Origin: Norana najaformis
Lineage: Eukaryota > Annelida > Clitellata > Crassiclitellata > Hormogastridae
NCBI GenBank assembly: GCA_964023275.1
Contig: OZ029925.1
Location: forward strand, 7,042,413 to 7,106,412
Direction: 5' to 3'
Length of the DNA: 64,000 nt
Below, one piece after another: positions 2,655 to 63,610 of the stretch (the first letter of the stretch is position 1; each line of letters begins with the position of its first letter). The notes under the pieces were generated by a model. The model saw nothing but the letters and a program-made list of their open reading frames with translations. It searched no databases and was not told where the DNA came from. The position numbers were made by a program, and so were the translations under genes.

Positions 2655-5600
2655 CTTATGAGTAAACAAAAGCAACAGGATAAGGGTTGATACAGGCTTT
2701 CGTTAAACAATTGTAACATGATATACGTTACATGTAGCCATTGCTCAGAGGCGTAGCAATAGATCGTGCAAAACACACCGGTCACAGAGGCTAGGGTCCG
2801 CTTGGGCCCCCAAGAGGCCAAGGCCCGGGGGCTCAAATACTTGAAGCAAAATAGCCAAAGTTGATATAACAAAAACTTAGAGAAGTAAGACGTCGAAACT
2901 GGGATAAGGTGGGTGAGGTTGGGGTGGGGGCCCATCGCATTCAGTTTGCACAAGGGCCCTCGGAAGGCCAGCTAAGCCACTGCCATTGCTATGCAATATT
3001 TAGCAACTTCTATAACGCAAGTGTCTAATACACAAGGCAACAACCGATGGCGCACCAAAACCCAGAGGTAGTTAGGTCAATACCCAGAAAGTTAGTACTA
3101 GATGCCGTCGCTATAGAAATTAATTAACTGCATAGCTCGTGCATTTAGCTGTTGCAATATATTGTGGACTCAGTGGTTCTACTGCTACTAATTAAACCCC
3201 TTGTGGTTCTGTAATATGTAGACATAGTAGTTTCAGGACAGACATTATGAAAACAACACGTTTGTTTTACTTCGAACTTGTGAATTATTTCTGGTCCAAT
3301 GTCCTCCTCGTTGGTTGGCTTGTAGTCCAGTTGCCCTCCGCCTTTCTCGTAGTAGGCTGTTTTTGGATCTGAAGATCTAAGTTCCAAGCATCAGCATTTA
3401 CTCATTATTAACCTCGTATACTATTAAATGACACTTGTGACATTCTTATCATCAGAAAACCCTCACACACTGCTTTCAAGTGTGGCTGACTGACAGGTGG
3501 AAGAGAAAGACGAGAAGTGAATGAAAGCAGTTAAAGGAGGAAGAATTTGGAAAGAGAAGAATTCGCTAAACTGACGATCAAGGGGGCAGCATCCGGAGAA
3601 CCGAAAATTATTTAACACTTGCATCTCATAAACTAACTGGTGGACCACGAGTAGACATTGACCGAAGCACATCCCCAAAGCTTTAAGCTGTTTTGCAAAT
3701 GCTGCAAATACGTTGCACATTTCTATTAATATACGAAAATTCTAAAGCACCTGTCTTTATTTTAAGACGAATTTTGACACACCAGTTACAGAGGGTCTAA
3801 GTTCCCCGAAGATTAAACCGCTGAACTTTGGCACAGCTCGCCACCAACATAATGGAAGATTTCTCTTCGCCTTCGGATCCTTTTGATGATAACAGACGAA
3901 CACATCTATCATTCTGCACCTTCTTCCATGCAGTATGAAGGCCGAAATTTATAGCTATCAGATCCTTTTCCTTGACTCTAGTCCAAGTGGTTCTAAGTCG
4001 GCCATATGGTTTTCTCCAGTCCGTATGGGGCATGTGCATTGCGGTCCACAGGGCCTTAAGGTGGTCCTCGTCTTCCGGTGCACGCGCGGCATGCCCGAAT
4101 AAGAGTAGTCTGCGATTCCGAACTGTGGCAGAGATTGGTATTGTCGCCGTTTGACATTATTTGACTTACATTATTAGACTTACCTCATATGACTTACTCT
4201 ATCTGACATATCCTATTTGTTTTACCCTATTTGACTTACCCAATTACAGCCAAGTCAACAATGGTAGACACTGCTATCTGAAGACTTATGCTGTTGTCTC
4301 TCACATCCTGTTCGGTACTAGTGCTGTAAAAGAGAAGCATTTATTTAGCGACTTTTCGAGTTTCTAAAATCTCAAGTGGACTAAGATTCTGAATATAAAA
4401 TAAAATATTTAATACATGCTACCAAACAGCCTAAATTTTGGTAACGATAGTACGCGACCTTGGGTATGCCGATTGAAAGTTAAAAGCCAAATAGTAAAGA
4501 AGGTTTAATTAACCTTTGATACTATAATGGTTATGGATGGTTTGGTTCACAGGTGGCAATTGGTTCACGGAAGCTTGGCTAACAAATGGCCTGGGTCATG
4601 ATTGGCTTGGTTCACGAGTGACTTGGTCCACGGGTGGTTTGGTTCATTGATGCTTGGTTTAAGAACGACTTGGGTCAAAATGACTCCCAGTCGAAATAAA
4701 AATAATACAGGTCTATATACATTTTCGATGCTAAAACCTAAAAGTCATTGGATAAAAGTAAAGATAAGAGTATAGTATTCTGAAAACAGAGACTGTCATA
4801 GATTTTGCACGTTCTTAAATTTGTCTTCTTGTCTTTAGTCCTCAGTTGACCCAAATACGTACGTGTTTACCAAGACATCGATGCTAATTTTGTTCTGTGC
4901 GCTGCTGAGTCTGTTTGGACTCAATCGAATCACCAAGGAAACTGTTTCCTTTTCTGCGACTGGATTTCCAACATCGCACTCAAGTTTATTTTCTACTGGA
5001 GTGCATAATAAGTTGTTACCCTGTAAATACAAGGGAATGAGTTTTCCATATAATCGTCTAAACTTTCTACCATCACTCAGTCCTACATCTTTGACTGGTT
5101 GGTAACTTATTGCTAACGCAAAATGGGAAGTTCAAACATCTGTCCTCTCACTGAATTTCTGCTGTCATGTTTACGAATGATCCTTCTACCTCAGGAACAC
5201 GTTTCCAATGAGTGTCTAGAGTGCTTTACCTTTATCCAACTGCTTCTGAGAAATCTCTATAGTGTGCTGTTAAACATTGTATCTAATTGCACTGTTATTC
5301 AGCAGATGGAAGTAGCAGTAAGGGACTTCTTAATTTGTTCGCTAGAGGGCAGAGTTCTATACTCTTACAGAATATATAGTTTGAGTTTGACGATGGCGAT
5401 GAGACAGTCCAGATTTTTAATTTTGATCATCTTTAGAGAAAAGACTTTGTTTGTATATTCGCTGATTAACTTTATCATGTGCTACATTTACCTTGTTTTT
5501 GCCTTTTAACTCACTCACCTTGCTCTCGGTTCCAATTAAGATGATGTTCTCTGGAAGAGTAACCCAAAGTACAGTCTCATGAGCGTCTTCTCCATCATTA

Positions 5601-8600
5601 GTCACCGACACGGTCATACGAAGTTCAGGAACTTCACCCAACTTCAGCAGGTAGTCACCGTTAGACTCTCTGTGGAGTGGCAAAATTCGACCATTTAGAC
5701 CTTCTGGTTCAACGTATCCATTTACTATGTACCCGATAGATGCTATGTGACAAGTAAAATTTGGGTATAATTTGCAGAAAAAGTCTAGGCACCTACTTGC
5801 GTGGTAATGTTCGAAACGAGGTAAAGGTGGAGCTATTGGAATGTAATAGGGGTAGAAATGTATCTCTTTCCTGTGTACTTGAGCGATGCATCTCAAAGAT
5901 TTTAATATTATCGTTAACCCAAGCGAACCGATAAGTCCCTCGTTAAATATCCCCAGGCGGTAAAACCGAATACAGCCATCATAATGAAAAATCACTTCAC
6001 TAGACAAAGTCAATGTTGGTAGTTTCACATAAGAATTATTAACCCAATATTATATATTAAGATGAGCAACTTCTATTTATTTAACACATTAAGGTGAAAC
6101 GTTAAACACTCTCGCTCGCTGTGATGCAGCTGTTAAAATCCAGCTGCATCATAATAAACTTTAATAAGAAGAATTTTCTCACTGAGGTAGTTGCAAAGTG
6201 GCCGATAACTTTAGATTGCTTTTGCAGATATCGTCCGTTCCACAGTTTTTAATGAACGAAACCTAGTTACACAATTAAATTACCGGTGAAACAGTTAGCG
6301 CTTTAACAGAAACTGTACAATTCTACACATCGTTGTTTCTGTTAAAACAGAAAGAATAGATCATCGGACCCGCAAGAAATATCCGAACGCAGTCGAGATA
6401 CATCCTGGCGTCACTTAGTGCACACGACTAGTCTCACATGAGGTCGGCACGACAGGGATAAATAAATAAATAAATAAATAAATAAACACAGAAAGAGAGG
6501 AATACCTAGATTAAATTAGAGTTAGGCCTATTCCTCAAATAGGTTTAATTAGTTTAAGCAACCCACCATAGATTTATTAGATTTATGAGCATTTTATTAA
6601 ATCGTAGCCCACTAACAATACGATGATACGACGACGATTATGAAAAAAGTAGCAAAACTTATGACGTATCTCAATAAATAAATAAACAAATAAATAACTA
6701 AATAAAATAATAATAATAAAAACAAATAATTATAATGATAATAATGATAATGATAATAATAATGTAAAATGATAAGTTGTAGTAGTAGTTATATCAGTAG
6801 TAGTAGTAGTTTGTTGTATTAATTGAACCTCCGACTGAGCGACAGTCATACTCCACTTACCGGACCAGATCACGGATACACGCGTCCTAACCATTTAGAT
6901 AATATAGATACAGACGAAGCGTAAAATATTGCACTTCTTTAGTGACAAATAAAGACAAGTTAAGATGACTATAATTTATAAACATATTAATACTATTTAA
7001 AAGAATTTCACCCTGTTCCAATTAAGCCTACTAGATATATCTGGAAAAGCTGTAGAAATTAGGTTATTGCATTACCCAGTTCAACACCGTTACACCCTCG
7101 TAGTAGCTCAATAGATTACATAACAACCCTAAATTATAATTATACAACATGCCTGCAAGTCTTTATGGCTTGTAGTCTGATTAAGAACTGGGTAGGAATA
7201 GAAATCGGGCAAAGGTTGACCGGAGGTCATTCTTGGTTGTGTGGAGTTAGACAACTCGTAAGTCAGTCTGAAAGCAATAGGACTCAAGAAGTCCCTGATG
7301 TTTTTCTGCAACAGGAAAAATGTTCATAATTATGTAGAATTCTGCTCTAAACTCTTCTATAGTTATTGTATTTCAGTCGCGAAGCAACGGGACTCAAGAT
7401 GTCCTTGCTTTTGCTTTTGTGCAACAGGGAAAACGCTCACTCAGAGTTATGCTCTTAATTGTTTTATAGTCGTATATCTGATGTTATCATCAAATGTTTC
7501 AAGAAACGTAAAGAAACGGGATTATAACAAGAAACGCTTCACAATTGTCTCTTCTACTTTCGAATAAGAACGTAAAAATCTGCCTCAACATAATTAGAAT
7601 GCAAAAAGACATAAAAAGGTTAATTAGTTAAGTGGACATCTCAAGCCGATGAAAATATCGATTGATGTTTTGTGCATCATGATAATGGCGCTACAGAAGT
7701 CAAAGGATTAGCTTAGATGGGACTTGCCCGAAGATAAGCCGCGTGGCTGGCGCATTCGAGTGTCTGCTGGCTTTGTTCTTTCATGTTGACTGTGTTTTCA
7801 ACGACGAAATTGTCAACAACGTCGCCAAAGAATACTCGAATCACTTTGCTACCTGTAAACTTCTCTGCTTCCAAACGATAGTTGATTCTAAGCCTACCCG
7901 GGTATCTGGAAAAATCACCAATTAATCATCGACTATGCATTTAATATAATTTATACAACATTAGCCTGGGGTGCGCACGTTCATGGGCAGCGAATTAATT
8001 TATACTACTTAGAAGAATTATCTGATGAATGTTTAGAGAAACGCTGGCGTTCTGGCGAATGAAGACAATGTTTCGTTAGAGGATTTTGCCAAAAGAAATG
8101 TTAAACAATCTCACTTGTTGTGATGCGGCTGTTAAACAGAATACGATATTCGTATCTTTAGAATACTAAACTCGTATCTTTAATATGAAGTTGCCTCTAA
8201 CAGAGAGAGGGAGATAAGAGGCAGTCAGAGAGGCAAGGAGGAATGGGAGGGAGAGCTGGAAGGTAGGAAGGAACATGGATAGGGCAGCATAGCAAAAGCA
8301 GAGCAACAGGGATTTTCCCCCAGAATGGACATTTTGCCAAACCACCGACCATACTCACTAATACCAAATCGCCTCTATGTAATGTAATTTATATTTGATT
8401 TTCCCAATGCACAATACAATACGGCCCAACATTTATGAAACCGAATGAAACGTAGGCTTGCCTATCTTTGGGTTCGGCCGTGAATCTTAGACAGACTTTA
8501 ATTGTCATGCAGTTGAATGCCTTGCCATCCGAACAGTTTGTCCGTTTCGGGTTAATCTGTCTGGGATCCGACTCCAGTGTGGCTATGATGTTGACCACAG

Positions 8601-11600
8601 GCCTGGCCCTGAGAATAACGACTGAATCGGACTGGTAAGCTCCAATGACAAGATCAGGGTAAGTGTTGTTATCGACGTCATTGCCTCCAGACAGAGAGTA
8701 ACCGAAAGATTTCAGGTTGGCTCCAGCAACATCAGCAGCCGATATTCTCTGTGAATAGGTATCGATCTTGGATGTCGGCGATCCACGAAAGACGTAAACT
8801 GCTCCGTTGCCTTCGAAGGGAGCGCCAACCACGAAGTCTGTTGACAGATATTTTCATAACAAAGCACTAGGTCACACACACACACTTGTATATATGCAAG
8901 TGTCAAATCGAACACGTGTTGGACTTATAACTGGATACCAGTGACAACACTTCGGGATGGCTTTACACCTAGTGAACGTATCTATCATGGGATCAGGACC
9001 ACGGTTCTGAGTAGATTCTATGGTGACAAGTAAACATTTGAACCTTAACCTACCTTTATAAGCGAATATCATTCATTTATTTACATAACTTGATTTGATT
9101 TAAATTATTCAAGGCACTTCAAACTTAGTTGGTTAAAAGGGCAGGTCTCACAAATTTAAGTGTAATTGATAATTAATTGAACGATAAAAATAATATTCCC
9201 ACCGCCCAACCCGCGATGGCTTCAAGAGGCGTAATGGAGACGTAGGTCAAATAAACTAGGAGAGTTGATGTCTTTAAGTGTGTTTTATCCATATGCTGTA
9301 AAGGCCTTTTATCTCATCGGCCCTAAAATTCGAATAGTGGATCAGCTCCTGATAACTTAAAACTGAACCTTGATAGCCGTCTCTGTCCAAGTCTCCGATG
9401 GTCGCCAGAGCAAAGCCGAATCTTGCGTCGTAGCATTTCAGCGTCTCGCATTCGGCTTCTTTCATTCGACGGCTCGTTATTTTGACCGGCTTCGATGTGA
9501 AACCCTCAAATAGAAAGAAATTGATCGATTTTTATTACCTGAACCACCTCGCTACTGAAGAAAAGGGAGAACTAGAATACAGTCTGAGAGAAACATTCCT
9601 TCCGAAGAATCCTGAGCTTGTTACTTTTGGCTGGATGGGCGGATGGATGGACAGGCGAATGGATAGATGATGGACAGAAAGACGAAGGATGGATGGACGG
9701 ACGGTTGGATAGACTGATGGACGATTTGACGATGGATGGAAAGATGGATGGATCGATGGATGGATCGTTGGATGGATGGATCGGTGGATGGACAATGGAT
9801 TGATGGACGGACCGACGTAAGGAAGGAAGGAAGTACGGAGGAATGGATGGATGGATGGACGGCCGGACGGATGGATGGATGAATGGATGGATGGATGGGT
9901 CATGAGTAGCAAGTTATCTGACGCTAATTAGGAAGTAATCTGATGGCATTTACTCCTCTTTTGTTGAAGTAGATATAGATGGCTCCGCCTATGCCTTGTT
10001 CGTGATAAAACGGAGCTCCGACAACCAGATCATTTTTTCTGCCATTAAGAACAAAATCAATGTTTCAAATTTCTGCACATACATAGATCAACACATACAG
10101 ACACATTTTCATACATAAATACATGCACACATGCACACATACATACCTGTATACATACTTATACTTATGCATACATGTGCATATACTCACTTGCACACAT
10201 ACAAGCAAGTAAACATACATGTAGATACATACATAGGCTACATACACAAATACATTTACGTATGCATACATACTTATACACATACATACACGCATACATA
10301 CTTACACATAAACACACAAGTATACATCCATGTACATACATGCATATGTTGCATACATAAATACATTCATGAAATCTAAATTGGGCTTTAGAAATTTTCA
10401 AGTCTACGATTTCGAATTTTACATTAAGCACTTATTAGACTTTCAGCTTATGGGTAGTGATGATGATGATAATGATGATGACGACGACGACTATGTAGTA
10501 ATGGGTTCTAATAAATTATCACCAGATTGATCTCACCCATCGTTGTTGAAATCGCCCACAATGAGGGCATAGCCGAATCCGGAGTAGAACTGCTCGCCCA
10601 AGAGTCGCTGAACATATTCGAGTTGCATGTTCGACCCTTGTCGAAACAAGAAGACCTCTCCAGAACCATGTGACTTCGGAGCGCCTCCGATGTACGCGGG
10701 ACTTCCGTTTTCGAATATACGCTCTCCTATCTTAACGGCCATTCCTACAGTTTGTCATGCAATATTCTGTTTAGGACAGTTAGGGTGCAATAATGCGAGT
10801 CAAATATCTATCCGTTACCATAGACGATATTCTGTCAAGTAATCGTTATCGTTATCGTAAGCTGCAGATTTCTACAGTGCTCAACGAAGCTAAGTCGCGG
10901 GAGCAGCTTATTCACAGGCGCTCAGTCAAAACAAAACACAATCGATAGACAGAAGGGGTTCGGTTCCACGTCAAGATCCAAGAGTCAGGCAGGCAGAGAG
11001 TCAGTCGGCTACGGTGGATGGTATTTGGAATGGAACCGGAAAGTGAAATAAGGGGAAGAGTAAGAATCAGGATAGGATGTGTGAAAGAGGAGTGTATAGT
11101 CATAAGACACATTTCTATTGTGATTCATTATTTTGTGTTCATTCAGACAAATATCACACAACATCAAATTGCTTAGGTATACGGGTTTCTATAGCGACCG
11201 TATGTCCTCGACCCTGCTCATTTTTCAATGAATTAATCGGGTGAGATCCTTTACCATCTCTGCCCGATTGTATGGGCGCCACGCTATTTAAGATCCAGAT
11301 GTACAGACCGTGATAGCCCGAGATTAAAATCTTTCAAATAAGCCACGATCGGGTTGTGAAGCGACATCCTGTCGCTCAGAGGCGCCTTGACGTACGCATT
11401 AACCATCGTAGCTAACTATGCCAGGGTTAGTTATCTGTGCACGGTAGACTAATAGTTAACGTGCTGGAATGTGTAGGGACCTTGAGCAAGTCCTTCACTA
11501 ACAATTGCTCAGCGCCATCGATTGATGCTTAGTCGTTTGATAGTGACGCTTAATTAACACAGAAATAATAATAATAATCAATAATAGATCATCGGGTTCG

Positions 11601-34433: not shown

Positions 34434-37400
34434 TTGATGAAGTTGATAAATGATGATGATGATGATGATTATAATAATAATAATTATTATTATTATAATT
34501 ATAATTGTACTAATAATATAAAATAATAAGTTGTAGTAGCAGTTATATCAGCATTAGTAGTAATTTGTTGTTTTCTCTCAACCTCAGACTGAACGACAGT
34601 CATACTGCATTAGCCGGACCTGATCACGAATTCACGCATCTTAGCCTTTTAGATAATGTAGATATAGACAAAGCATAAAATATTACACTTCTGTAGTGAC
34701 AACTAAAGACAATTTAAGATGACTATAATTTTAAAACTTACTAATATTATTTAACAGGATTTCACCCTGTTCCAAATAAGCCTATTGGATATATCTAGAA
34801 AAGCTGTCGAAATTAAATTTTTGCATTACCCAGTTCAACACCGTTACACTCTCGTATAGTAGCTCTATAGATTACATAACAACTCTAAATTATACAACTT
34901 GCCTGTAAGTCTTTGCGGCTTGTAGTCTGATTGAGAACTGGGTAGGAATAGAAATCGGGCAAAGGTTGACCGGGGGTCATTCTTGGTGGCGTGGAGTCCG
35001 ACAACTTGTAAGTCAGTCTGAAAGCAACAGGACTCAAGAAGTCCCTGATGTTTTTCTGTAACAGGAAAAACGGTCACTCTTAATTGTTGTAAAGTCATAT
35101 TTCTGATTTTATTACCAAATGTTTCAAAAAACGTCGTTACTTTGACTTACTTGAAACAAAGCTGTGCGCCTGAAGCAGGGATTATATTTAGAAACGCTTC
35201 GCAATTGCCTTCTACTTTCGATTGAGAAGGTAAACGATTAGCCTCAGCACTATTAGAATGCAAAAAGGCATATCACGGTTATTACTGGACATCTCAAGCA
35301 GATGCAAATATCACTTGCTGCTTTGTGCATCATGCAAATGACGCTACAGAAGTCATTGGATTAGATCAGATGGGACTTGCCCGAAGATAAGCCGTGTGGC
35401 TGGCGCATTCTGGTGTCTGCTTGCTTTGCTTTTTCATATTGACTGTTCTTTCAACGACGAATTTGTTAACATCTTCGCCAAAGAATACTCGAACCACTTT
35501 GCTACCTGTAAACTTCTCTGCTTCCAAACGATACTTGATTCTAATCCTACCCGGGTATCTGGAAAAGTCATCAATTACTAATAGACTATGCATTGACTAT
35601 AATTTATACAACATTAGCCTAAGGTGCGTACGTACATGCGTTCATGTGCGGCTCGCCAGTGGCGCCGTCGGCGAATTAAATTATACTAATTAGACGAATA
35701 ACCTGCTGAATATTTAGAGAAACGCTGGGCTCTGGCGAAAGAAAACAAAAAATGTTCCGTAAGAAGATTTGCCAAATGAAACGTTGCATAATCTCACTTG
35801 CTTTGATGCGGCAGTTAAATAGCTGCATCATAATAACTTTAACACGAAGTTGCATCTAAAGGAGAGAGGGAGATAAGAGGCAATTAGGAAGCAAGGGGGA
35901 ATGGAAGGGAGAGATAGCAGGGTGGATAGAACGCCGAGCAATAAGGAATTTCCCCCAGAATGGACATTTTGCTAAACCACCGACCAGGTGCTCTGTGCCG
36001 GAAAGGTTGTTGAAACTACTAGCATCGCTTTTATGTAATGTAATTTATATTTGGTTTTCCCAATGCACAATACAAAACGGCCCAATATTTGTGGAACAGA
36101 ATGAAACGTGCCTATCTTTGGGTTCGGCCGTGAATCTTAGACAGACTTTAATTGTCATGCAGTTGAATGCTTTGCCATCCGAACAGTTTATCCGTTTCGG
36201 GTCAATCTGTCTGATATTCGACACCAGTGTGGCTATGATGTTGACCACAGGCCTAGCCCTGAGAATGACGACTGCATCGGACTGGTAGGCTCCAATGACA
36301 AGATCAGGGTAAGTGTTGTTATCGACGTCACTGCCTCCAGACAGAGAGTAACCGAAAGATTTCAGGTTGGCTCCAGCAACATCAGCAGCCGCTATTCTCT
36401 GTGAATAGGTATATATTTTGGATGTCGGCGATCCACGAAAAACGTAAACTGCTCCGTTGCCTTCGAAGGGAGCGCCAACCACGAAGTCTATTGAACAATT
36501 GTTTACCAGATATTTTCATAACAGAGCACTTTGTGACATACACGCACAGAAATACGCACACACGTGTATATATGCAAGTGTCAAATCGAACACATGTTGG
36601 ATACCAGTGACAACACTTCGGACTTGCTTTACACCCAGTGAACGTATCTGTCAGACGATTAGAACCACGGCTCAGACTAGGCTCTGAGTGGCATGTCAAC
36701 AGTTGCACCTTTGCATACCTTCATAAGCGAATATTATTCAATTATTTTCACAGCTTGATTTGATTTAAATTATTCATGGCACTCCAACCTAAGATGGCTA
36801 CCAAGGCAGGTCGCACAAATCGAAGTGCAACTGGTAATTAATTAAACGATAAAAATATTGTTCAAACCGCCAAACCCGTGGTTGATTCAAGAGGCTTAAT
36901 GGAGACGTCGGCCCAAATAAACTTGCCGGATTGATGTCTTTTAAGTGCGTTTTATCCTAACGCCTTAGAGCCTAATATCTCATCGGCCCTGATTAAGAAT
37001 CGTGGATCAGCTCCTGAAAACTTCATACTGAACCTTGATAGCCGTCTCTGTCCAAGTCTCCGATGGTCGCCAGAGCAAAGCCGAATCTTGCGTCGTAGCA
37101 CCTCAACGTCTCGCATTCAGCTTCTTGCATTCGACGGTTCGTTATTTTGATCGGCTCCGATGTGAAACCCTCAAATACAAAGAAATTAATCGATTTTTAT
37201 TACCTGAAGCACCTCGCTACTAAAGAAAAGGAAGAACTAGAATCCCACCTGAGAGAAACGTTTCTTTCGAAGAATCCTGAGCTTGTTACCTTTGACTGCA
37301 TAGGTGGATGAATAGACAGATGGATAGATCAAAAGACGAAGGATGGATGGACGGACGGTTGGATAGATTGATAGAGGGATTGACGATGGATGGATGGATG

Positions 37401-47740: not shown

Positions 47741-48022
47741 GCACAGAGGAAACAGCGCACGTCGACACCCAAGTGTGTTACAATCATCATATGAATTGAA
47801 GCTCTTAAACGCAATGCATGTCTGTTTCGGAGAGGTTCTTTGCTCAGTTGTCTAATGTGTATCTTCTCCGTCAATGTCGGCCTAAACCTTTGGTTTCTCG
47901 TTAAAAATTCCTATAAGATCCATAGTTCTAAATGTTCTGAAGTCTCTTTTCAACAGCGACTCGATCAAAGTCAGTCTCGACGTGATGTCTATAATTTTGT
48001 GATTCGCCCATTTACGTAATGT

Positions 48023-48633
48023 TCATGGAAATCCGAAGACAATAATTTCTAACAGTGACACGATCATCAACGATGTTTTACTGAACAACGGTTTCTCAGC
48101 CGCATTACGATGTCTAGGAATGACTAAGCGGGGACTCAGTTCGGGACACTTCCCTGCGAGGGCTTTGTCAAATGCATCCTGAAGATCACCGATCAGTGAT
48201 TCAGCTTTCTCCTGGCTCTCCGAAAGATGAGCCACGTCTTTCTGGCAAAGTAGAAGTTTTTCGTCCACTCTTCTCTTCGCGTTCTCGCAGTTTTCGATCT
48301 CGGCTCCCAGAGTTTGTCTGCTGCTCAGTTTTTCCATCTGGCATCGGAGCGAGTTGATTTCGAGCAGGTGGGTCACATTCATGAGTTCTTTCCTACAGGT
48401 GGCCAATTCGTTTCCCGCGGTTCTGATGTCCCTGTGCAATGCGTTGTTATCGGCTTTGAGTGTTGCTAGCTCGGACTTTAAATTGTTCAGTTCAATCAGC
48501 TTCAGACTCAGGACAACTGTTGATATTACAGCTGTCCAGAAAGCGACAACAGCTACAATACCGCCGATAGATAGAAGTGTTATGCCTTTAGTTCGTGGGC
48601 AGGAAATAACTGGCACTGTTTCACTTTGTTCTG
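48023..48633 (-). CDS. Gene 1: double-anchored coiled-coil protein, tetherin-like architecture (last exon)
   Basis: The exon starts after a TTTTGGTTAATAG acceptor in phase 1 and encodes about 203 residues to the TGA at 48025-48023. From the N-terminus: a short polar tail with Cys-Pro-Arg, a membrane helix (ITLLSIGGIVAVVAFWTAVI), a long heptad-rich coiled coil with five cysteines and one sequon (NVT), then a spacer with N-A-A and a short hydrophobic C-terminus (SLMIVSLLEIIVFGFP) typical of a GPI-attachment signal. An N-terminal membrane helix plus C-terminal GPI anchor around a disulphide-linked coiled coil is the layout of vertebrate tetherin/BST2. A seven-residue stretch MNVTHLL shares NVTHLL with my memory of human BST2, which may be chance. 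The first exon is unresolved: ATGAATCTAG|GTAAGA at 49,990-49,981 fits the phase; a second candidate ends at about 52,562. No homology search was possible. Confidence 0.6.
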
Positions 48634-48779
48634 CTATTAACCAAAAGCAATGAACACTTATAAAGAGTAAGAATATGTAATGTAATGGCGACTATTAGGC
48701 CTACACAAATGTAATGTAATGTAAAGTCGTACAGAATATAAATATGTACTATTGGCTAGAGAATATAAATATGTTATGT

Positions 48780-49745: not shown

Positions 49746-49980
49746 GAATAGTAATAAGAGCCAACTGTGACGTCTCTAAAACAGCGGCTTAATGTAAACT
49801 GAAGATATTATGCGCCTTTAGGTGCTTTTATAAAAGCGCTATACAAATGTTCACATACATACACAAAATGCCTATATGCACGATGAAAGTTCGATCAGCT
49901 AACTATATACTGCAACTGACTGAAGTGAGTCTAGAGCTCTAGCTCTAAGAATGCAGCTTACTAATGAAACCGCTTCTTAC

Positions 49981-49990
49981 CTAGATTCAT
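49981..49990 (-). CDS. Candidate first coding exon of gene 1
   Basis: ATGAATCTAG followed by a strong GTAAGAAG donor, with A at -3. It ends in phase 1 and would give MNL then the AEQSETV start of the 48.6-kb exon. It lies in sequence unique to unit B, as does the main exon. The assignment is tentative; an internal exon ending near 52,562 with donor GTAGGT also fits the phase. Confidence 0.25.
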
Positions 49991-52741: not shown

Positions 52742-54553
52742 ATGAGCAGCAGCAAGCTTACATTCCGAAAAAGGGTAACCATTGACAGAAAGGTATGTTA
52801 ACGTTTCATCACGATTTGTTGGGGTAGGCATACTAGACAACTTATTCGTATGATACACAGCACACCTAAAAATGTTTTGTGTAGGTCTGCTGCAATTACT
52901 GGCTAACTTTAGGCTATCCGACTGACCCTTGGAATTTACCGGGTTGTGAATCTGTTTGGAGTGTCATCGGTTGATGCCTGTAGTGCGTTGGTATAATTGC
53001 GCTATAGAAATTTTAAGATAAGATTAGGTTAGCTACCTTGCACGGCTGCCCAGTTTTCAGCATCTTGTGCATGTATTGGCTAGCAGTTGCTTGTGCCTAA
53101 AATATTATCATTCTGGAATTTGGTTTTAGTTGGAAGCGACCAAAACAGCGCTCCAAAAGCCTTTGGATGAGATGCAAGATTAGTGGCATATTGGCTGCAA
53201 TCCAGAATCCTTAACACAGTTAAATACAACAATTTTTCAAATAAATTTAGCAATAATTGTGCACAATGGTTAAATATTTTATAATTTTTACTCTATCAAC
53301 AACTAAAAATTATCATCACTTGAAATAAGAACCATTAGTGATAAGATAGGCTTAATTAACCAACAAGAACTCTAGAAATCTAATAAATATATTAGGCCTA
53401 CTGTTCGCCCATTTAAACAAAAGAGCGAAAAAATTATGTAAGAGAAACTTGTTCAGAACTACTACTACTATTACTACCACTACCACTACCACTACTACCA
53501 CTACCACTACTACTACTACTACTACCACTACTACTACTATTGTTATTATTATTATTATTACAGGAAGCAGCTTCTTTTTGGGGAGCAGAACTTGATCTCG
53601 TCGAAGATGAAGTGCAGAGTAGTAACATAACAAGTAAAGTCGTTTTTCACTTCGAAACTAAATTTCTATGCCTACATGTATGGCAACGCAAAATAAAACA
53701 TAATCAGTCCTTTTATGCAATCATGCTATCATCACTGCTAGCATCCGTTGGCTAAAGGGCATAGATGTGCTATGAATTGCAAACGGGCTTGCTAATTAGG
53801 TCTAATTATCGGTGGAAATATTCCCACGTGATTGATATTTATCATCTAGTTATTCCGTAAATCGGGGGATGTATGACTCTGTTGTTTACTTTTGCTTGAC
53901 ATCATTTAGGTAGCGCAACAAAGACGCAAACCTTACAACAGAAGTGGAATCTGCAACATTCGAGGATTTGGAGATGTACTTTATCACCGGTAGATGTCAT
54001 GTCAATATTAACTTTGGTTATTTTTGCAGCAGCTTTGATATACTTTGTCAAACAAAGTCTGGATTCTCGCAACCAAACTATCTGGCAACTTGAACAAAAG
54101 AACTCTGAGTGCCTTAACAAGACACTTGAATTTCGAGAGAAGGTTGATGACCTTAAGAAGGAATTGGCGCAGACTAAACAGGCGTTGAGAGATGCGCAGA
54201 TCGAGAACAAGGAAATACGAGACAGAGTATACCAGTGCAAATTGGACGCAATTACAGCGGAAAGCAGATGTACTCAAGAAATGTTTGAAGCGAAAGAAGA
54301 ATGTCGTTTAGACATGGATCAGAACAAGGCAGAACAAGGAAAGCAAGAGTATGAAAACCAGCTCTTCAGGGAAAGAATAGAATGGTTGTTTGAATGCTTG
54401 GGACGCCCAAATTCCGCACAGGATAATTTCATCCTTTCTCGCATATTTAGTGCAATCGTTAGAGCAATTGAAAGTGGACTTGGAATGAATAGAGATGTCG
54501 AAAACTGCTTAAAGTTGTTTAACAGTCGATTCCAGCGAGGACTTACAGCTTAG
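52742..54553 (+). CDS. Gene 2: type II membrane coiled-coil protein with C-terminal two-Cys domain
   Basis: Three exons: 52742-52792 (MSSSKLTFRKR..., donor GTATGT, phase 0), 53564-53633 (acidic, EAASFWGAELDLVEDEV, phase 0 to 1) and 53910-54553, giving 254 residues. A cytoplasmic tail of about 66 residues is followed by one membrane helix (about 68-87), a long coiled coil (about 90-190) with cysteines at 108, 150, 161 and 172, and a C-terminal domain with W199, C203-L-G, C240 and an ending CLxxFNSRF. Two sequons (N95, N110) just outside the helix support an extracellular stalk. The family is not recognised. It is paralogous to gene 3: the same positions after the first Cys (G+2, F+11, R+15) and the same intron phases. 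Microsatellite (ACT)n sits in intron 1. Function unknown; a surface receptor or effector is inferred from topology only. Confidence 0.72.
53458..53563. repeat. ACT/ACC-ATT microsatellite in gene 2 intron 1
   Basis: ACT and ACC triplets run into ATT and directly into the CAG acceptor of exon 2, forming its pyrimidine-side context. Confidence 0.88.
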
Positions 54554-56548: not shown

Positions 56549-59505
56549 CATGTATGTATGTATGTATGTATGTATGTATATATATAAGTATGTATGCATG
56601 TATATTTGTATGTTTCCAATCACTCTTATAGCGCATTTTAAGAATCTGTCAAAGGCACTGAAATATGATTATATAAAAGTTCTAAAAAGATGCATCTTAA
56701 GATAAGCCGAGAACGATGTGGTTGAAGAGTTCGAAGTTTCAGGGCAAGATTGTTCCTTCAGGACGATCCAGTGAAAAGGAAAATACGGTGTGATCCCGAG
56801 CCGTCGTAAATATAATTCTCGAGTTCCCTTCAAACATAAGTCGAGTGCTAGACATGTCATGGTTTGAGCACCAGATGTTTTCTTCGGTTCACTGAGCAAC
56901 CCATGGACCAGAAACGAAGAGATGGAAGGTTGAGAGGGTGGATAAGAGAATATAAAGACATCAAGTATTAAAGGCGAGGCACAGGCCAAGTGTGACTGGA
57001 TCCAACTGACAAATTTACGCTGTAAATAAGAAGACTCTCATTAGACGCTGAATAACTCTATATATCTCATCAAATGCAAAGTTTTAAACTTCTTTAAAAG
57101 CAGGATAAAATGGTATACAATCGCTATATTCCTGCATGGAATTATATTTGAACGCTAGTATCTTATTATTGGACCGAGTTGTCACCATAAAGAAATCGAA
57201 CTGTTCGCAATGTAATGTAACATCCAATTTCAGGTATCACGAGTAATATTTTGTTATATGGGTCCATGGTCTAAGCCCAGGTAGATGACTGACTGGTTTC
57301 AGTCAAACAGCATAAGACATACGGTAGGAATCACTTAAGTGACAGCCAAGTAGGCTATGCAGCAGTGCACAGCGACTCTTAACAGCTCAGACTTGATGTA
57401 GAGGCTGATTTTTAGTACAACCGAGACAACTTCAGATCGAGTGCAGTTCGATAGTAAGTTCAAAGTTCAAAATCGTACGTCATAAACTTAAGCTTAGTCG
57501 TTGGAGGATACATAACCAACGGGAATCGAAACTTTCGGAAAAGCAAAACATGACTGTGGTTCGCCAATGACTTATTTCTAACCCTGATTCGTCCTCAATA
57601 TACCACTCGATCACGCCATTATATATACCAAGACCACCGTCGTTGACCACTTTTCGTGAAAAAGAAAAAGTAGTAGTAGTAGGAGGAGGAGTAGTAGGAG
57701 GAGGAGAAGGAGGAGGAGCAGGAGGAGGAGGAGAAGGAGGAGGAGCAGCAGGAGGAGGAGGAGAAGGAGAAGAAGAAGAAGACTAATGAAAGATGGAGAG
57801 CTGAGTGGGGCCAGGTAGCGTGTTACTCTACGGACGACTAAGAGATACAAAGAGGACTCGATTTGTACTAACTTCACCGTTTCTGCAAATAGTATAAACA
57901 AGCCAACAGTATTTTAAAAAATTTAGCTGGTTCAAATGTGAGCCGTTCAGAAAACATTACAACCCTTGGAGTCATTCTTGATGCTACCCTTACCTTTAAG
58001 CAACATGTTTCTGCCGTCTGCAAAACCGCTTTTTCCATCTTAGAGCCTTATTAGAGACATATTCGTTCGGTTCTCACTGATGATAAGGCAGCTGCGATCG
58101 CCGTTGCTCTTGTCCAATCTAGACTTGACTATGCCAGTTCTATCATTTTCCATGCCCCGTCTTATAATATCAGAAAATTACAGCTGGTACAGAACTTGGC
58201 AGCACGCCTTGTCCATCCTAACTGCAACCTTTCATCTGCTGGCATTCTCTCACAACTTCACTGGCTCCCGGTTTCAAGATGCATTGATTTTAAAATAGCT
58301 ACAATCACCGACCAACTTCTCCATACCCAGCAACCTGCCTATCTCCGATCTTTAATTGATTTTCATGTTCCTGTTCGTAGCACACGATCTAGTGACCCTC
58401 TAAACCCGAGACAACCTTATTTGGGCAAAGTTATTGGGGAACTTGCTTTCTGTTCGGCCTCGCCTGTGATTTGGAACAGCATTCCTTTCTCTATCCGATC
58501 TGCTCCATCAGTCTCATGCTTCAAGCGGCTACTTAAAACCTTCTATTTTGCCAACTCACCTATCCCCTAGTTTTCCCTCTTTTGCTACTGCCTGACTCCC
58601 TCTGAGCGACTGACCGTGCCTCTGATTCAAATTATTTTTGATGTCTCTTAACATTCATTCATTCATTGTCATCTTAGATTATGAATTATGTCATTATTTT
58701 CAGTGTTACGTATTTGCAGGGGGTCGCAGTTGGCGAAGCTGAAGAAGATCAACGGCGGATTGAAACAGTAATACGTAAGGAAGCATGTTTTGTATGTAGC
58801 ATCGATTGAGAAACTAGACCCGTAAACTTAACAAACGGTATGGAATGATGTGCATGTGTGTATGTGTTTATGTATGCGTTTATATATATATATATGTATG
58901 TATGCATGTATGCATGTTTGTATGTATGTATGTACGTAGGTGTGCATCCAGAAACTTAATATAGCGCCTATTCAGAACCTAACCTGTGTAATACTTTTCG
59001 ATATTCACACCCCTTTAAGTTACTTTACATTACTTTTTCAGGCAGCCAACAGGATGACGAACGAAGACCAGAAAACAGAGACAACAGAGAACATTTCGCT
59101 CTTGATATAAAGAAACAGTGTTGCTTCATCACCGTATGCGTCATAGTGACCCTGTCTCTTCTTGCCTTCTTCATTGCGATGTTCCATCATTTTGACCAGA
59201 TGAATAAGCAGAATATGCAGATGAATCAGCAGTTGGTTTCAGAAATGAACAAGATGAGACATGAACTTGATGAAGAACGGGAGAAAAGGAAACAGGTGGA
59301 AGAGGTGCGATTGAGGGAGAACCAGCTACAGGCGGCAGGAGCGCAGTGGTTGCAACGATGCATCGGGCATCAAGTGGGAGATTACAGTTCTTTTACTGGG
59401 GTGCGACTCCTCTGGGGGCTAATAGAGATCGGTTATACAAACAAACAGCAGTTGAGATCGTGTTTGACCGAGTACAACGATCGTTTCTCACAAAAATTCT
59501 CTTGA
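56377..59505 (+). CDS. Gene 3: type II membrane coiled-coil protein, paralogue of gene 2
   Basis: Three exons: 56377-56433 (MNNERRRTANIDTG..., donor GTAATT, phase 0), 58720-58774 (acidic, GEAEEDQRRIETVI, donor GTAAGG, phase 0 to 1) and 59042-59505, giving 191 residues. A 63-residue charged cytoplasmic tail (DDERRPENRDNREH) leads to KKQ, a Cys-rich membrane helix (CCFITVCVIV..., about 64-86), a short Met/Gln-rich then Glu/Arg-rich coiled coil (about 88-132) and the C-terminal domain W140, C144-I-G, C178 and CLTEYNDRF. Compared with gene 2 the stalk is about half as long and has no cysteine or sequon. Intron 1 carries a (GTAT)n tract 17 bp after the donor and a CR1-like LINE fragment. The exon chain is supported by phase and paralogy, not by transcripts. 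Confidence 0.72.
56451..56612. repeat. GTAT microsatellite in gene 3 intron 1
   Basis: About 40 GTAT units starting 17 bp after the exon 1 donor. Long Tyr/Met/Cys ORFs over it are artefacts. Confidence 0.93.
57664..57785. repeat. Purine-rich GGA/GTA tract in gene 3 intron 1
   Basis: GTA then GGA, GAA and GCA triplets, almost all purine on the plus strand. Confidence 0.88.
57920..58665 (+). mobile_element. CR1-like LINE 3' fragment in gene 3 intron 1
   Basis: One open frame reads MAARLVHPNCNLSSAGIL, LHWLPVSRCIDFKI, PVIWNSIPFSIRS and CFKRLLKTFYF, the standard CR1/L2-type C-terminus. It ends TGATTCAAATTATTTTTGATGTCT then CATTCATTCATT. Upstream coding (VTTLGVILDATLTFKQH-like) reaches about 57,930. 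Confidence 0.75.
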
Positions 59506-60834
59506 ATTAACAGCTAAACCAATTCCTACTAATATTAAATCATAATTAAGTGCAAATTGAACTTGCGAACTGTCATAAAATTATAATAATTAATTAATAA
59601 GTGCAGTATGAACTGGAAGATTGCGAACTGTTAAAATATTTAAGACACTAAATGCTATTTTAGAAGCAACTGATGTTTCTAATTAGCCAAATATAACTAA
59701 AAGGTTTACTGCTCTTCTTAAATAGTTTCTCCAATTATTCTTTATTTCATTATTCCTAAAGGATAGCGGTTGTTAATCATCTGACATGATGACATAATCA
59801 TCCGAGCTGATGGATTCCTAATTTTATACGTCATAGCTGTTTTATTATTGTAATCTTCGAATCTGAATTTATTAAAAATTGCTAGCAACTGTTTTCACAA
59901 GTATAACAAAAAAATAAAATATAGATTATGACAACGAAATGGTTATTTTCTGGTATTAATTGTGATACACACATAATTTGGCTGGTGAACGGCCGTTCTC
60001 CCTCGGCCAATTGGTTCAGCTCTATAATGGCTCCCCTTTGCCAACAGCTTGACTAGTTCTGTGCTTCTGCAATTTTAAACTGTGAACTGTTAAAAGTGTA
60101 GTTTCTTCTTCAAGAGGCGCTATATAATTTGTAGGATTCAATGCAATTAAATAAAATACAGAAGAGTAGACATTGTTGTTCACTGCTCCGATATTGACCT
60201 GGTTATACATATTATGTTCATGTTATAAATGGCACTTATAAACCAACAGATCTCTGTGGAGAGTCCTTAGTTTATCTTGTGGCCTCTGTGTCAGAGGCGA
60301 TGGGCGTCATTTGGTAGTTAGAATTTAGGCAAAACTACTAATTTATCTCTTTGTAAATACAATGACAGATCCAGAGGCCAACACTGCCTGTTGGAGAAGT
60401 CTGGTCGAAATCCGACACAGGAGGAAAAGCAGAAGTCAGGCTACGGTGGATAAGAACGTTGAAATAGATGAGTCTTAAGCTTAAACCTGAATGACATCAG
60501 AGTACTTAGAGAACTGGGCAATGCATTTCAAATTTTTGATTCAGCCAAAACAAAAGAGAATGCTGTAACGGACAGGCCTATTTCTTATTAACCAATATTT
60601 CATGTTAAACGTTTTATTTCAACCGTTTTCCACTGTAGTAAAATTCAGCAAAGAAAGTGGACCTAAGAGAAGTAGGCTTGGATTCAGAAGATTAATAACT
60701 GTGTGGCCCGACAGCCAACGCTGTCTTGTCTCACGTGCAATGTATACATAAATTAATCAGTGATAAATGTGGCAGTGTTGTCACTCTGCAGAGCTGTGTT
60801 TATCTAAGATTTGAGTCGGCAGCATTCGATCCAC
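59506..60834. other. Flank between gene 3 and the minisatellite
   Basis: A+T-rich 3' flank of gene 3, including AATAAA near 59,913, and a partial R1 copy at 60,370-60,470. Nothing else recognised. Confidence 0.45.
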
Positions 60835-62247
60835 CCAATCGATCACACTGCTTCTCTGTCTACCCAATCGTTCAGACTGCTTCTCTGTCTATCCAATCGA
60901 TCAGACTGCTTCTCTGTCTATCCAATCGATCACACTGCTTCTCTGTCTACCCAATCGATCAGACTGCTTCTCTGTCTATTCAATCGATCACACTGCTTCT
61001 CTGTCTACCCAATCGATCACACTGCTTCTCTGTCTACCCAATCGATCAGACTGCTTCTCTGTCTACCCAATCGATCAGACTGCTTCTCTGTCTACCCAAT
61101 CGATCACACTGCTTCTCTGTCTACCCAATCGTTCAGACTGCTTCTCTGTCTACCCAATCGATCAGACTGCTTCTCTGTCTATCCAATCGATCAGACTGCT
61201 TCTCTGTCTATCCAATCGATCAGACTGCTTCTCTGTCTACCCAATCGATCACACTGCTTCTCTGTCTACCCAATCGATCAGACTGCTTCTCTGTCTATCC
61301 AATCGATCAGACTGCATCTCTGTCTATCCAATCGATCACACTGCTTCTCTGTCTACCCAATCGATCAGACTGCTTCTCTGTCTACCCAATCGATCAGACT
61401 GCTTCTCTGTCTATCCAATCGATCAGACTGCTTCTCTGTCTATCCAATCGATCAGACTGCTTCTCTGTCTATCCAATCGATCAGACTGCTTCTCTGTCTA
61501 CCCAATCGATCACACTGCTTCTCTGTCTACCCAATCGATCAGACTGCTTCTCTGTCTACCCAATCGATCACACTGCTTCTCTGTCTACCCAATCGATCAG
61601 ACTGCTTCTCTGTCTATCCAATCGATCACACTGCTTCTCTGTCTACCCAATCGATCACACTGCTTCTCTGTCTACCCAATCGATCAGACTGCTTCTCTGT
61701 CTACCCAATCGTTCAGACTGCTTCTCTGTCTATCCAATCGATCAGACTGCTTCTCTGTCTATCCAATCGATCAGACTGCTTCTCTGTCTACCCAATCGAT
61801 CACACTGCTTCTCTGTCTACCCAATCGATCACACTGCTTCTCTGTCTACCCAATCGATCAGACTGCTTCTCTGTCTACCCAATCGATCAGACTGCTTCTC
61901 TGTCTATCCAATCGATCAGACTGCTTCTCTGTCTATCCAATCGATCAGACTGCTTCTCTGTCTATCCAATCGATCAGACTGCTTCTCTGTCTATCCAATC
62001 GATCAGACTGCTTCTCTGTCTACCCAATCGATCAGACTGCTTCTCTGTCTACCCAATCGATCACACTGCTTCTCTGTCTATCCAATCGATCAGACTGCTT
62101 CTCTGTCTACCCAATCGATCAGACTGCTTCTCTGTCTACCCAATCGATCACACTGCTTCTCTGTCTATCCAATCGATCAGACTGCTTCTCTGTCTACCCA
62201 ATCGATCACACTGCTTCTCTGTCTACCCAATCGATCAGACTGTTTCT
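60835..62247. repeat. 29-bp minisatellite, about 49 units
   Basis: The unit is CTGCTTCTCTGTCTA-[C/T]-CCAATCGATCA-[C/G]-A. Nearly all variation is at two positions plus an occasional GATC to GTTC change. Because 29 is not a multiple of 3, each frame cycles through all phases; the unit has no stop in any plus frame, which creates overlapping 526- and 480-codon ORFs that are not genes. Confidence 0.93.
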
Positions 62248-62721
62248 TTGTGAGTTGGGAAAATGTAATTTCCAAAACCTTCGTATCGTGTTACGAAACT
62301 ATCTAGAAGGCTAGAGTACATTTCCTGAAAATAATCAATAGGATTAAAACAGAGTGGGGTTCAGATGGAATCCTCTTGGTTACGCATGCAACATGCAGCT
62401 TTATGTAGGTCAATCAGAAAAACACTTGTATCGGGCAAGTCGCCTCTTGCCCGTCAAAAGCCCCTCTGATATACAGTAAAGCTAACATAGATTTAATTGT
62501 TCGGACCTGTAGCGCTTTTGATTTATTTCTTTGTTATCAGCAGAGGATTGCATCAGTCTTTCTGATACTGTATTGCAGTTAACAATTTTAGATGGAGAAC
62601 AAGGTAGGTAACGGTAGGTTACTGTATTATAATTATGATCAGTAATGGCGAGGCGTTCAAAAACTGAAGATTGTCGATGAACTACAGCTGACCCACGCTG
62701 AAGGTCATGCTAGGGATGCAG
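62248..62721. other. Spacer between minisatellite and polymerase remnant
   Basis: No gene, repeat or element recognised in this 470-bp stretch. Confidence 0.4.
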
Positions 62722-63610
62722 TTAATTTTGAGTCTGTGCCGCCTCACAACTGTCCATCGCCTGCATGATAAGATGTTCATCGTAATCGCTCAATCTGTGG
62801 AGGTTGTCGAGGTATATGCACAGCTTGAGGTTGCAAGCTTTTTGGGCGGCCCCTTGATACTTGCCGATGATGTGACAGTGGTCGCGAACCTTGTCCACGT
62901 CGAGTATCCCGCCACAGATATGGCATTCCACAGCTTCATTGAATGCACGTCTATCTCTATCATCCATCTGCATATCAGCTTTGTTGCGGAGCTGTTTGTG
63001 GATGTAGGCGAGCTCACCTTGACGACCTTACAGGAACAATATCACGGCGTTTTCTCCGCGGTAGAGCACAGGCTCATTGACTTGGCCGCCATGGCGCACC
63101 ACGAAGTAACTGAAGCTGCAAATCTTCTGCTCTGCAATGAGCTTGGTATTGCTCTTGTTGGAGTCGTTGTCTGGGCATTCCACCGGAAAGTTCAATACCT
63201 CACAGTCCGCATAGGTGGTGTATAAGGCGCATATTTGCTTGTGGTGGTTCTGGAATTTAAGGGTGTCCTTATCCTCTTCCGGCACCTCATTCCGCTGCGG
63301 CATCCGCCTATGCTCCTGCAGTCTTTAGTGTGGGCATCTAGCATGTCCTGTCTGGATAAGACGTGCAGACAGCTACGGGATTGGTGTTTTTTGTGATCAT
63401 AGTTGCTGTTTTTGTACAGGACGCGGACAAGGTCATTGGTCTTGACGCAGTGTTGGTTTTTGTCGTCTGCCAGCAGTAGAAGATCGACAATGTGGAATAT
63501 AGTCTCGCTTGAAACACGTATTGGATACAGCCCGCGATTTCGCCCGAACACGCTTACGGCTTTGTCCGGGTTCTGGCCCTCGAACTTCCAGCATCACATT
63601 TTCGGCATGC
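62722..63610 (-). mobile_element. Polinton/Maverick-type protein-primed DNA polymerase remnant
   Basis: In order on the minus strand: FEGQNPDKAVSVFGRNRGLY (from about 63,600), HIVDLLLLADDKNQHC, the zinc-finger-like CLHVLSRQDMLDAHTKDC, then in a second frame LKFQNHHKQI and TTYADCEVL (the exonuclease-region YADxE-like motif), then in a third CHICGGILDVDKVRDHCH and GAAQKACNLKL. This order is typical of Polinton family-B polymerases. Frame changes near 63,300 and 63,030 and a stop at 62,722 show it is a fragment. No capsid, integrase or terminal repeats are seen in the window. Confidence 0.8.

Follow-up and report, generated by a model that had tools for sequence, protein, structure and literature searches.

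A constrained coiled-coil gene of an annelid and its possible tetherin-like double anchor

Does an annelid encode a protein built like the vertebrate restriction factor tetherin, and if so, is the likeness inherited or convergent? The question is raised by a minus-strand reading frame in the genome of Norana najaformis (608,420,607 bases in 17 contigs). It lies in a stretch of 64,000 nucleotides that was analyzed as a whole and is called here the window (C13:7042413-7106412, contig OZ029925.1). The original prediction, made from the letters of the DNA, described the product of this frame as a tetherin/BST2-like protein with an N-terminal membrane helix, a cysteine-containing coiled coil and a C-terminal GPI signal, either convergent with tetherin or homologous to it. 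The DNA had also been taken for that of an invertebrate; in agreement with this, a single C1-set immunoglobulin match at E<=0.001 was found in 608 Mb, and the source is probably no jawed vertebrate. An echinoderm is disfavored by the tektins: one of them matches human 7ung (374 bits) and sea urchin 8snb (355 bits) nearly equally, and an exon of another scores higher with mammalian tektin-3 (175 bits) than with any chain of 8snb (106 bits).

The frame 48691-48023 is open over 222 codons. The likely acceptor, TTAATAG|CA at 48634/48633, leaves phase 1, and the last coding exon of the gene, here named A1 (protein P1), would be entered through a phase-1 intron. The exon contains 202 full codons, which run from EQSETVPVISCPRTKG through the membrane helix and a long charged helix to KCPELSPRLVIPRHRNAAEKPLFSKTSLMIVSLLEIIVFGFP; the stop codon occupies 48025-48023, and the first AATAAA is located 837 bases beyond it. 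The candidate first coding exon with the best donor score (MNL|G; Table 1) has an equally good counterpart in 10.5% of random 2-kb stretches, weaker alternatives lie, among others, at 52967 and 52831, and a first exon resembling that of the paralog described below was sought and not found. Hydrophobic letters 5' of the acceptor, seen in both A1 and the paralog, might be read as a signal peptide; in our judgement they are a polypyrimidine tract read in frame, and this reading was dropped.

Table 1. Positions of the features of A1 and of the B genes, in window coordinates except where the contig C13 is named
Feature	Position	Strand	Basis
Candidate coding exon 1 of A1, giving MNL plus one base, donor GTAAGA at 49980	49981..49990	-	best donor score
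Last coding exon of A1 (P1), from the cytosolic stub through membrane helix and coiled coil to the C-terminal tail	48023..48633	-	translation
Membrane helix (A1 residues 17-43, ends set by eye)	48503..48583	-	hydropathy and model
Coiled-coil ectodomain (A1 residues 44-161), bearing Cys 79, 97, 115, 129 and sequon N85-V-T	48149..48502	-	hydropathy and model
Candidate omega triplet N-A-A, residues 176-178	48098..48106	-	GPI rule
Spacer EKPLFSKTS, 9 residues, tail border by eye	48071..48097	-	translation
Hydrophobic tail at the C-terminus, LMIVSLLEIIVFGFP, with a single glutamate among 15 residues	48026..48070	-	hydropathy
Last exon of B1 (P2): membrane helix followed by a coiled coil that bears two sequons and by a helical C-terminal domain	53910..54553	+	hydropathy and model
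Last exon of B2 (P3): membrane helix, short coiled coil, C-terminal domain as in B1	59042..59505	+	hydropathy
Two further B genes	C13:7107318-7108295; C13:7115394-7116209		genome search with L4

An order-3 Markov model predicts about 0.07 frames of 204 or more codons in 64 kb; the window has seven, a number that includes repeats. A codon score trained on a small set (four exons, two of them from genes of the cluster considered below) prefers, on average across the A1 exon, the coding frame to the other five. This signal is concentrated in the middle of the exon and falls to about zero in the 60 codons at its start and the 40 at its end; therefore, the codon score lends no support to the tail. 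As for the concern that splicing might take the hydrophobic end away, no usable donor was found inside 47900-48690, where the best GT scores -0.24 (scores of at least 0 are reached by about 10% of all GT within the window). Such splicing is thus unlikely, and the hydrophobic end is probably the true C-terminus.

A genome search with P1 yielded a single relative at E<=1, L2, on the plus strand at C13:7131301-7131729, 41 kb away (E 1.6e-14, 37% identity); the match spans residues 21-160 of the 222-residue query, that is, the helix and the coil but not the end. The reverse search with L2 returned P1 and L2 itself only, and the SW score of the pair, 188, compares with a maximum of 64 in 500 shuffles. 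Over the common core, dN is 0.64 and dS is 2.8 (saturated), with identities of 0.52/0.61/0.37 at the three codon positions; thus both genes are maintained as proteins. Open over its length and accompanied by a constrained paralog, the stretch predicted to be an exon is a true coding exon. Cysteines 79, 97 and 129 of P1 are shared with L2. The C-termini of the two proteins no longer align well, and that of L2 consists, in a division made by eye, of N-G-A, RRLESLQ and AILMLSSMFLFKVLVVV, with one charge (K). Since L2 was matched without its end and yet carries a tail of the same kind, it replicates the layout of P1. A plausible first exon was seen for L2 at L002:938-1001 (donor score 3.5); it encodes MADEDLTTEAFMATTQNNHNA with one further base and is followed by a phase-1 intron. 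AATAAA occurs 581 bases beyond the stop of L2 (TGA).

The N-terminal part of the protein agrees well with the original prediction. A single membrane helix is borne out by hydropathy (the best 19-mer, residues 25-43, has a mean KD of 2.43) and by the structure model. The net charge is +2 in the 15 residues before the helix and 0 in the 15 after it, which, together with the sequon N85VT, the sole one in A1, points to a type II orientation. The coiled coil with its sequon and five cysteines is likewise present: hydrophobic residues of the ectodomain recur every 3.54 residues (heptad periodicity, P=0.0155, 2000 shuffles), and, apart from Cys 11 on the presumed cytosolic side, the cysteines are 79, 97, 115, 129 and, at the helix end, 162. 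The four within the coil fall on one helical face (P=0.014 against random positions), compared with P=0.13 for the four coil cysteines of P2. In a single-sequence AlphaFold2 model of A1 (mean pLDDT 65.9), helices cover residues 18-101 and 108-161 with a break at 102-107, and a low-confidence helix (pLDDT about 45) lies in the tail at 185-199. The models of P1 and P2 are mostly long helices of modest confidence; no fold match at E<=0.001 was found in PDB for either of them or in BFVD for P1.

The C-terminal tail is the critical part of the layout. A small omega residue, a small residue at omega+2, a polar spacer and a hydrophobic stretch of 15-20 residues make up the pattern of GPI signals (PMC9098846, PMC10491789), and the order of elements in the P1 tail falls within it. 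The terminal stretch of P1 has a mean KD of 2.35 over 15 residues and 1.77 over 19, with the glutamate in mid-tail; the first fit of our script placed the border with the spacer two residues earlier than the division by eye. We applied a relaxed rule (one of GASNDC at omega, any residue but proline at omega+1, one of GASTC at omega+2, a spacer of 4-10 residues, and a tail of 10-22 residues with a mean KD of at least 1.8) and a strict one, which in addition allows no charge in the tail. P1 and L2 pass the relaxed rule and none of the four B proteins does; both P1, with E in its tail, and L2, with K, fail the strict rule.

Among background frames, the relaxed rule is passed by 13/273 in the window and by 36/1077 when 180 kb of flanking sequence are added to it (3-5%), and the strict rule by 3/273 and 16/1077, respectively. 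These sets exclude low-complexity ends and frames shorter than 60 codons and retain real coding frames; P1 was removed in both runs and L2 in the second, and 412 bases at the window edge were counted twice. As an independent trial of the relaxed rule, L2 has a background of about 3%; the hydrophobicity of its tail is 2.08, and the last 20 residues are equally hydrophobic in 8/1077 background frames (0.7%). Charged or proline residues introduced into the hydrophobic helix of the signal are reported to lower or abolish transamidase activity, and the range of hydrophobicity is described as narrow (PMC10491789); borderline tails like those of P1 and L2 may fall within it. Thus the predicted GPI signal stands in part: the N-A-A site and the spacer fit and the relaxed rule is passed, whereas the glutamate runs against it under the strict rule. 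Judged by its residues, the C-terminus of P1 could well be a GPI-attachment signal, and we hold this tentatively.

A1 is a member of a cluster of six genes combining a membrane helix with a coiled coil, which extends over 41.6 kb on C13 and contains two A genes (A1 and L2) and four B genes. In all six, a phase-1 acceptor appears to be followed by the membrane helix, the coil and the C-terminus within one last exon (acceptors and phases were read from the sequence by eye). The hydrophobic, GPI-like tail is found in P1 and L2 and is absent from the four B genes. For instance, B1 has no hydrophobic end; it contains an in-frame ATG, so that an upstream intron is not required. P2 and P3 have a C-terminal domain in common (E 2e-5; SW score 70 against 21.8 in the null). 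This domain follows the coil, and all four B proteins keep L, C, F, G and C-L in it (L-x-x-C ... F ... G ... C-L); no Pfam match over the cut-off was obtained for the B family.

The search with L4 recovered all four B genes. The search with P2 returned itself, L4 and L5 (weakly, at E 0.01 and 0.14) and a frame on C8 at E 0.7, which by eye encodes a TRIM-type protein; that with P3 returned L4 and L5 besides itself, and a single weak match to a frame on C4. The cluster thus has at least six copies, and no further ones were seen in the genome search, which scores the best candidates only and whose counts are lower bounds. No clear sequence similarity between P1 and the B family was found. L2 scores 68-72 against P2, L4 and L5 and 54 against a tektin, a hint, though only a hint, of kinship between the A and B families; intron phase, exon layout and clustering also suggest their common descent. 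Next to the cluster, the frames L020:3-3146 (-), L021:8641-9999 (-), L018:8606-9253 (+) and L010:1197-2054 (+) include NWD1-like NACHT and WD40 frames, a Fuseless family protein and a protein with the AlaDh/PNT N-terminal domain.

Several other features of the window and the genome were observed. Integrin alpha exons lie on the minus strand at 5417-6049, 8389-8853 and 36045-36515 of the window, and the FG-GAP/Ig-1 exon is present in two very similar copies about 27 kb apart, which suggests a recent duplication. The minus-strand frame 62722-63027, situated beside other open frames, resembles recombination endonuclease VII (E 0.006, below the cut-off) and is perhaps part of a mobile element. At 60699-62314 (+), about 1.5 kb are open in all three plus-strand frames, each giving the same repeated peptides; hence this segment is a tandem DNA repeat. 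The word TAGGCCTA occurs in 20 copies in the window, with 0.84 expected from base composition, perhaps as the mark of a mobile element or of the lineage. Finally, the tektin family is apparently strongly expanded: its exon matches at E<=0.001 number 83 and are spread over many contigs.

Is the tetherin-like layout inherited? Similarity to vertebrate tetherins at the profile level did not materialize: BST2 (PF16716) is absent from the 16 Pfam matches at E<=1, and in the genome its profile has no match over the cut-off, two weak matches on C4 and C17, and none at the locus. When aligned to BST2, P1 scores 47 and L2 scores 62, and an unrelated tektin of the same genome reaches 60, the lengths compared being different. 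The score of P1 corresponds to P=0.038 with plain shuffles and 0.062 with shuffles that keep the heptads; the coils of P2 and P3 score 46 and 45 (P 0.04 and 0.01). No unrelated named family claims the protein either, in that all matches to Pfam and NCBIfam families stay below the respective cut-offs. The lowest E-values among these, 0.00065 for P1 (an SMC model) and 0.00011 for P2 (PRK09039), look like generic coiled coil. In PHROGs, which has no cut-off, P2 matches an unnamed family over the membrane helix and the coil (E 0.00015), which was set aside as the same coiled-coil noise. The best E-values in the PDB sequence search were 0.43 for P1 and 2.7 for a profile of P2 and P3. No relative was confirmed when P1 was compared with viral contigs and with the genomes of bacteria and archaea, P2 with viral contigs and phages, and P3 with viral contigs. 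PLVAP (PV-1, PF06637) is a type II glycoprotein with a coiled-coil ectodomain and in these respects is like A1, whereas the Pfam scan of the protein gave no match to it at E<=1; a genome search with PF06637 was empty, with the controls likewise silent.

The string NVTHLL, named in the original prediction as common to P1 and human BST2, does occur in human BST2, as seen in a PDB sequence search that matched seven sequences. An exact match of six residues arises in 0.1% of shuffles of the P1 coil, in a test chosen after the fact. In L2, NVTHLL is replaced by SKEHQL, and the flanking LEINS and the cysteines are kept; therefore, the sharing is most likely a coincidence. Homology to BST2 through this string was dropped, the overall scores being matched by the P2 and P3 coils and by the tektin.

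Four other explanations have to be weighed against a double-anchored, convergent protein. It is highly improbable that P1 is a chance frame, a pseudogene, or a gene losing its end by splicing: the first exon is a candidate one, but the frame is long, the paralog is under purifying selection, and no donor in the exon scores above zero. Quite possible, if somewhat doubtful, is a single-anchored type II coiled-coil surface protein, that is, an adhesion molecule, a receptor or a PLVAP-like scaffold, with the hydrophobic end unprocessed and packed in the dimer or lying on the membrane. The charge in both tails, with which the strict rule is failed, argues for it, as do the four B neighbors, single-anchored as far as hydropathy shows, and the passing of the relaxed rule by 3-5% of background frames. 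Against it, the small-residue triplet, the spacer and the hydrophobic end are kept in two paralogs despite ends that can hardly be aligned. A double anchor formed by a second membrane-inserted helix in place of GPI is unlikely. A membrane helix tolerates charged residues better than a GPI signal does, which would accommodate the tails of P1 and L2; these tails, however, are short (15-17 residues), and the insertion energy of P1, summed per residue, amounts to +1.68 across the 15 residues of the tail; the best 19-mer that overlaps this tail has +3.81, compared with -1.1 for the best N-terminal 19-mer. A precedent for such a topology is the long isoform of avian TMCC(aT), whose second hydrophobic region is predicted to make it tetherin-like (PMC10617486).

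Least probable, to the point of being nearly negligible, is a true tetherin ortholog with no residual similarity, derived from a cluster ancestral to BST2, TMCC(aT) and PLVAP. GTPBP3, MVB12 and DDA1, neighbors of human BST2, are all off C13 (0/3): GTPBP3 is on C10, and MVB12 and a partial match of 20 residues to DDA1 are on C1. In a chosen subset of flanking frames, the Pfam matches are to GPCR, NWD1-like, Fuseless, integrin alpha and AlaDh_PNT families, which differ from the neighbors named for tetherin, and the BST2 profile finds nothing at the locus. In favor of orthology, vertebrate tetherins outside mammals are described as recognized by position and layout, not by sequence (PMC10617486), so that sequence tests are weak evidence here. 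The same source reports that the vertebrate gene has two neighbors with a membrane helix and a coiled coil, for which a common ancestor is suggested (PMC10617486), and the annelid cluster is parallel in make-up. Thus, of the two origins originally proposed, the homologous one is left with no BST2 profile match, no common neighbor among three and a tektin-level score, while the layout itself is repeated in L2. We tentatively favor the reading of A1 as a constrained gene for a convergent, tetherin-shaped, double-anchored type II surface rod that is not an ortholog of tetherin.

The likeness to tetherin (BST2, CD317) includes the type II membrane helix, the cysteine-containing coil, the sequon, the hydrophobic C-terminus with a small-residue site, and the clustering with single-anchored genes of membrane helix and coil. 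The length is similar as well: the tetherin rod measures 17 nm (PMC3185764), and 118 ectodomain residues give, by arithmetic, about 17.7 nm for A1. Unlike tetherin, A1 has no profile match, none of the three tested neighbors in common, a coil similarity in the tektin range, a charged residue in the tail, and its entire ectodomain in one last exon after the presumed phase-1 intron. B1-B4 can be likened, by description, to TMCC(aT)/CCDC194, which has a cytosolic tail, a membrane helix and a coil, lacks a GPI signal and neighbors a double-anchored gene (PMC10617486), whereas B1-B4 have a C-terminal domain of their own. Engineered, in contrast to the natural A1, an artificial tetherin with a comparable layout, assembled from the N-terminus of the transferrin receptor, the coil of DMPK and the GPI signal of uPAR, obstructs virus release (PMC3185764). 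Because its sequence is unrelated, the layout and not the sequence suffices for this effect.

If A1 is such a double-anchored rod, cotranslational insertion would leave the short N-terminus in the cytosol and the coil outside the cell, and the cysteines on one face would staple a parallel dimer of predicted helical rods of about 18 nm. Exchange of the hydrophobic tail for GPI would then give a disulfide-linked rod with both ends in the membrane, one of which could enter a budding vesicle or virion with the other in the cell. Tetherin itself is interferon-induced and keeps enveloped particles on the surface of cells. A rod bridging virion and cell is reported for tetherin and for the artificial protein of unrelated sequence (PMC3185764); by analogy, A1 may bridge vesicles or virions and the cell. 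That virus envelopes are among the bridged membranes is our guess, and we put forward antiviral tethering by A1 and L2 as a hypothesis.

The double-anchored layout is rare: in a 2011 review, a minor prion isoform is the only similar case named (PMC3185764). No natural tetherin-like layout outside vertebrates was found among the matches listed in the open-licence literature, and a survey of immune genes in Aplysia reports no tetherin orthologs (PMC9334734). The tetherin layout should nonetheless be able to evolve repeatedly, since an engineered protein of unrelated sequence obstructs virus release. With a GPI signal added, TMCC(aT) is reported to restrict virus release (PMC10617486), and the mixture of tailed and tailless members in the annelid cluster is what would be expected if such a gain had happened here. 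A bolder proposal, which we consider speculative and rather doubtful, is that an invertebrate lineage independently evolved a tetherin system, in which two members of a tandem cluster gained a GPI signal and hold budding enveloped viruses or vesicles on the cell. Such a system would repeat the arrangement of BST2, TMCC(aT) and PLVAP by convergence. If the tails of A1 and L2 are GPI signals, the cluster would be a concrete case of convergent restriction-factor architecture, in which the single-anchored B neighbors serve as built-in controls for the tailed A genes.
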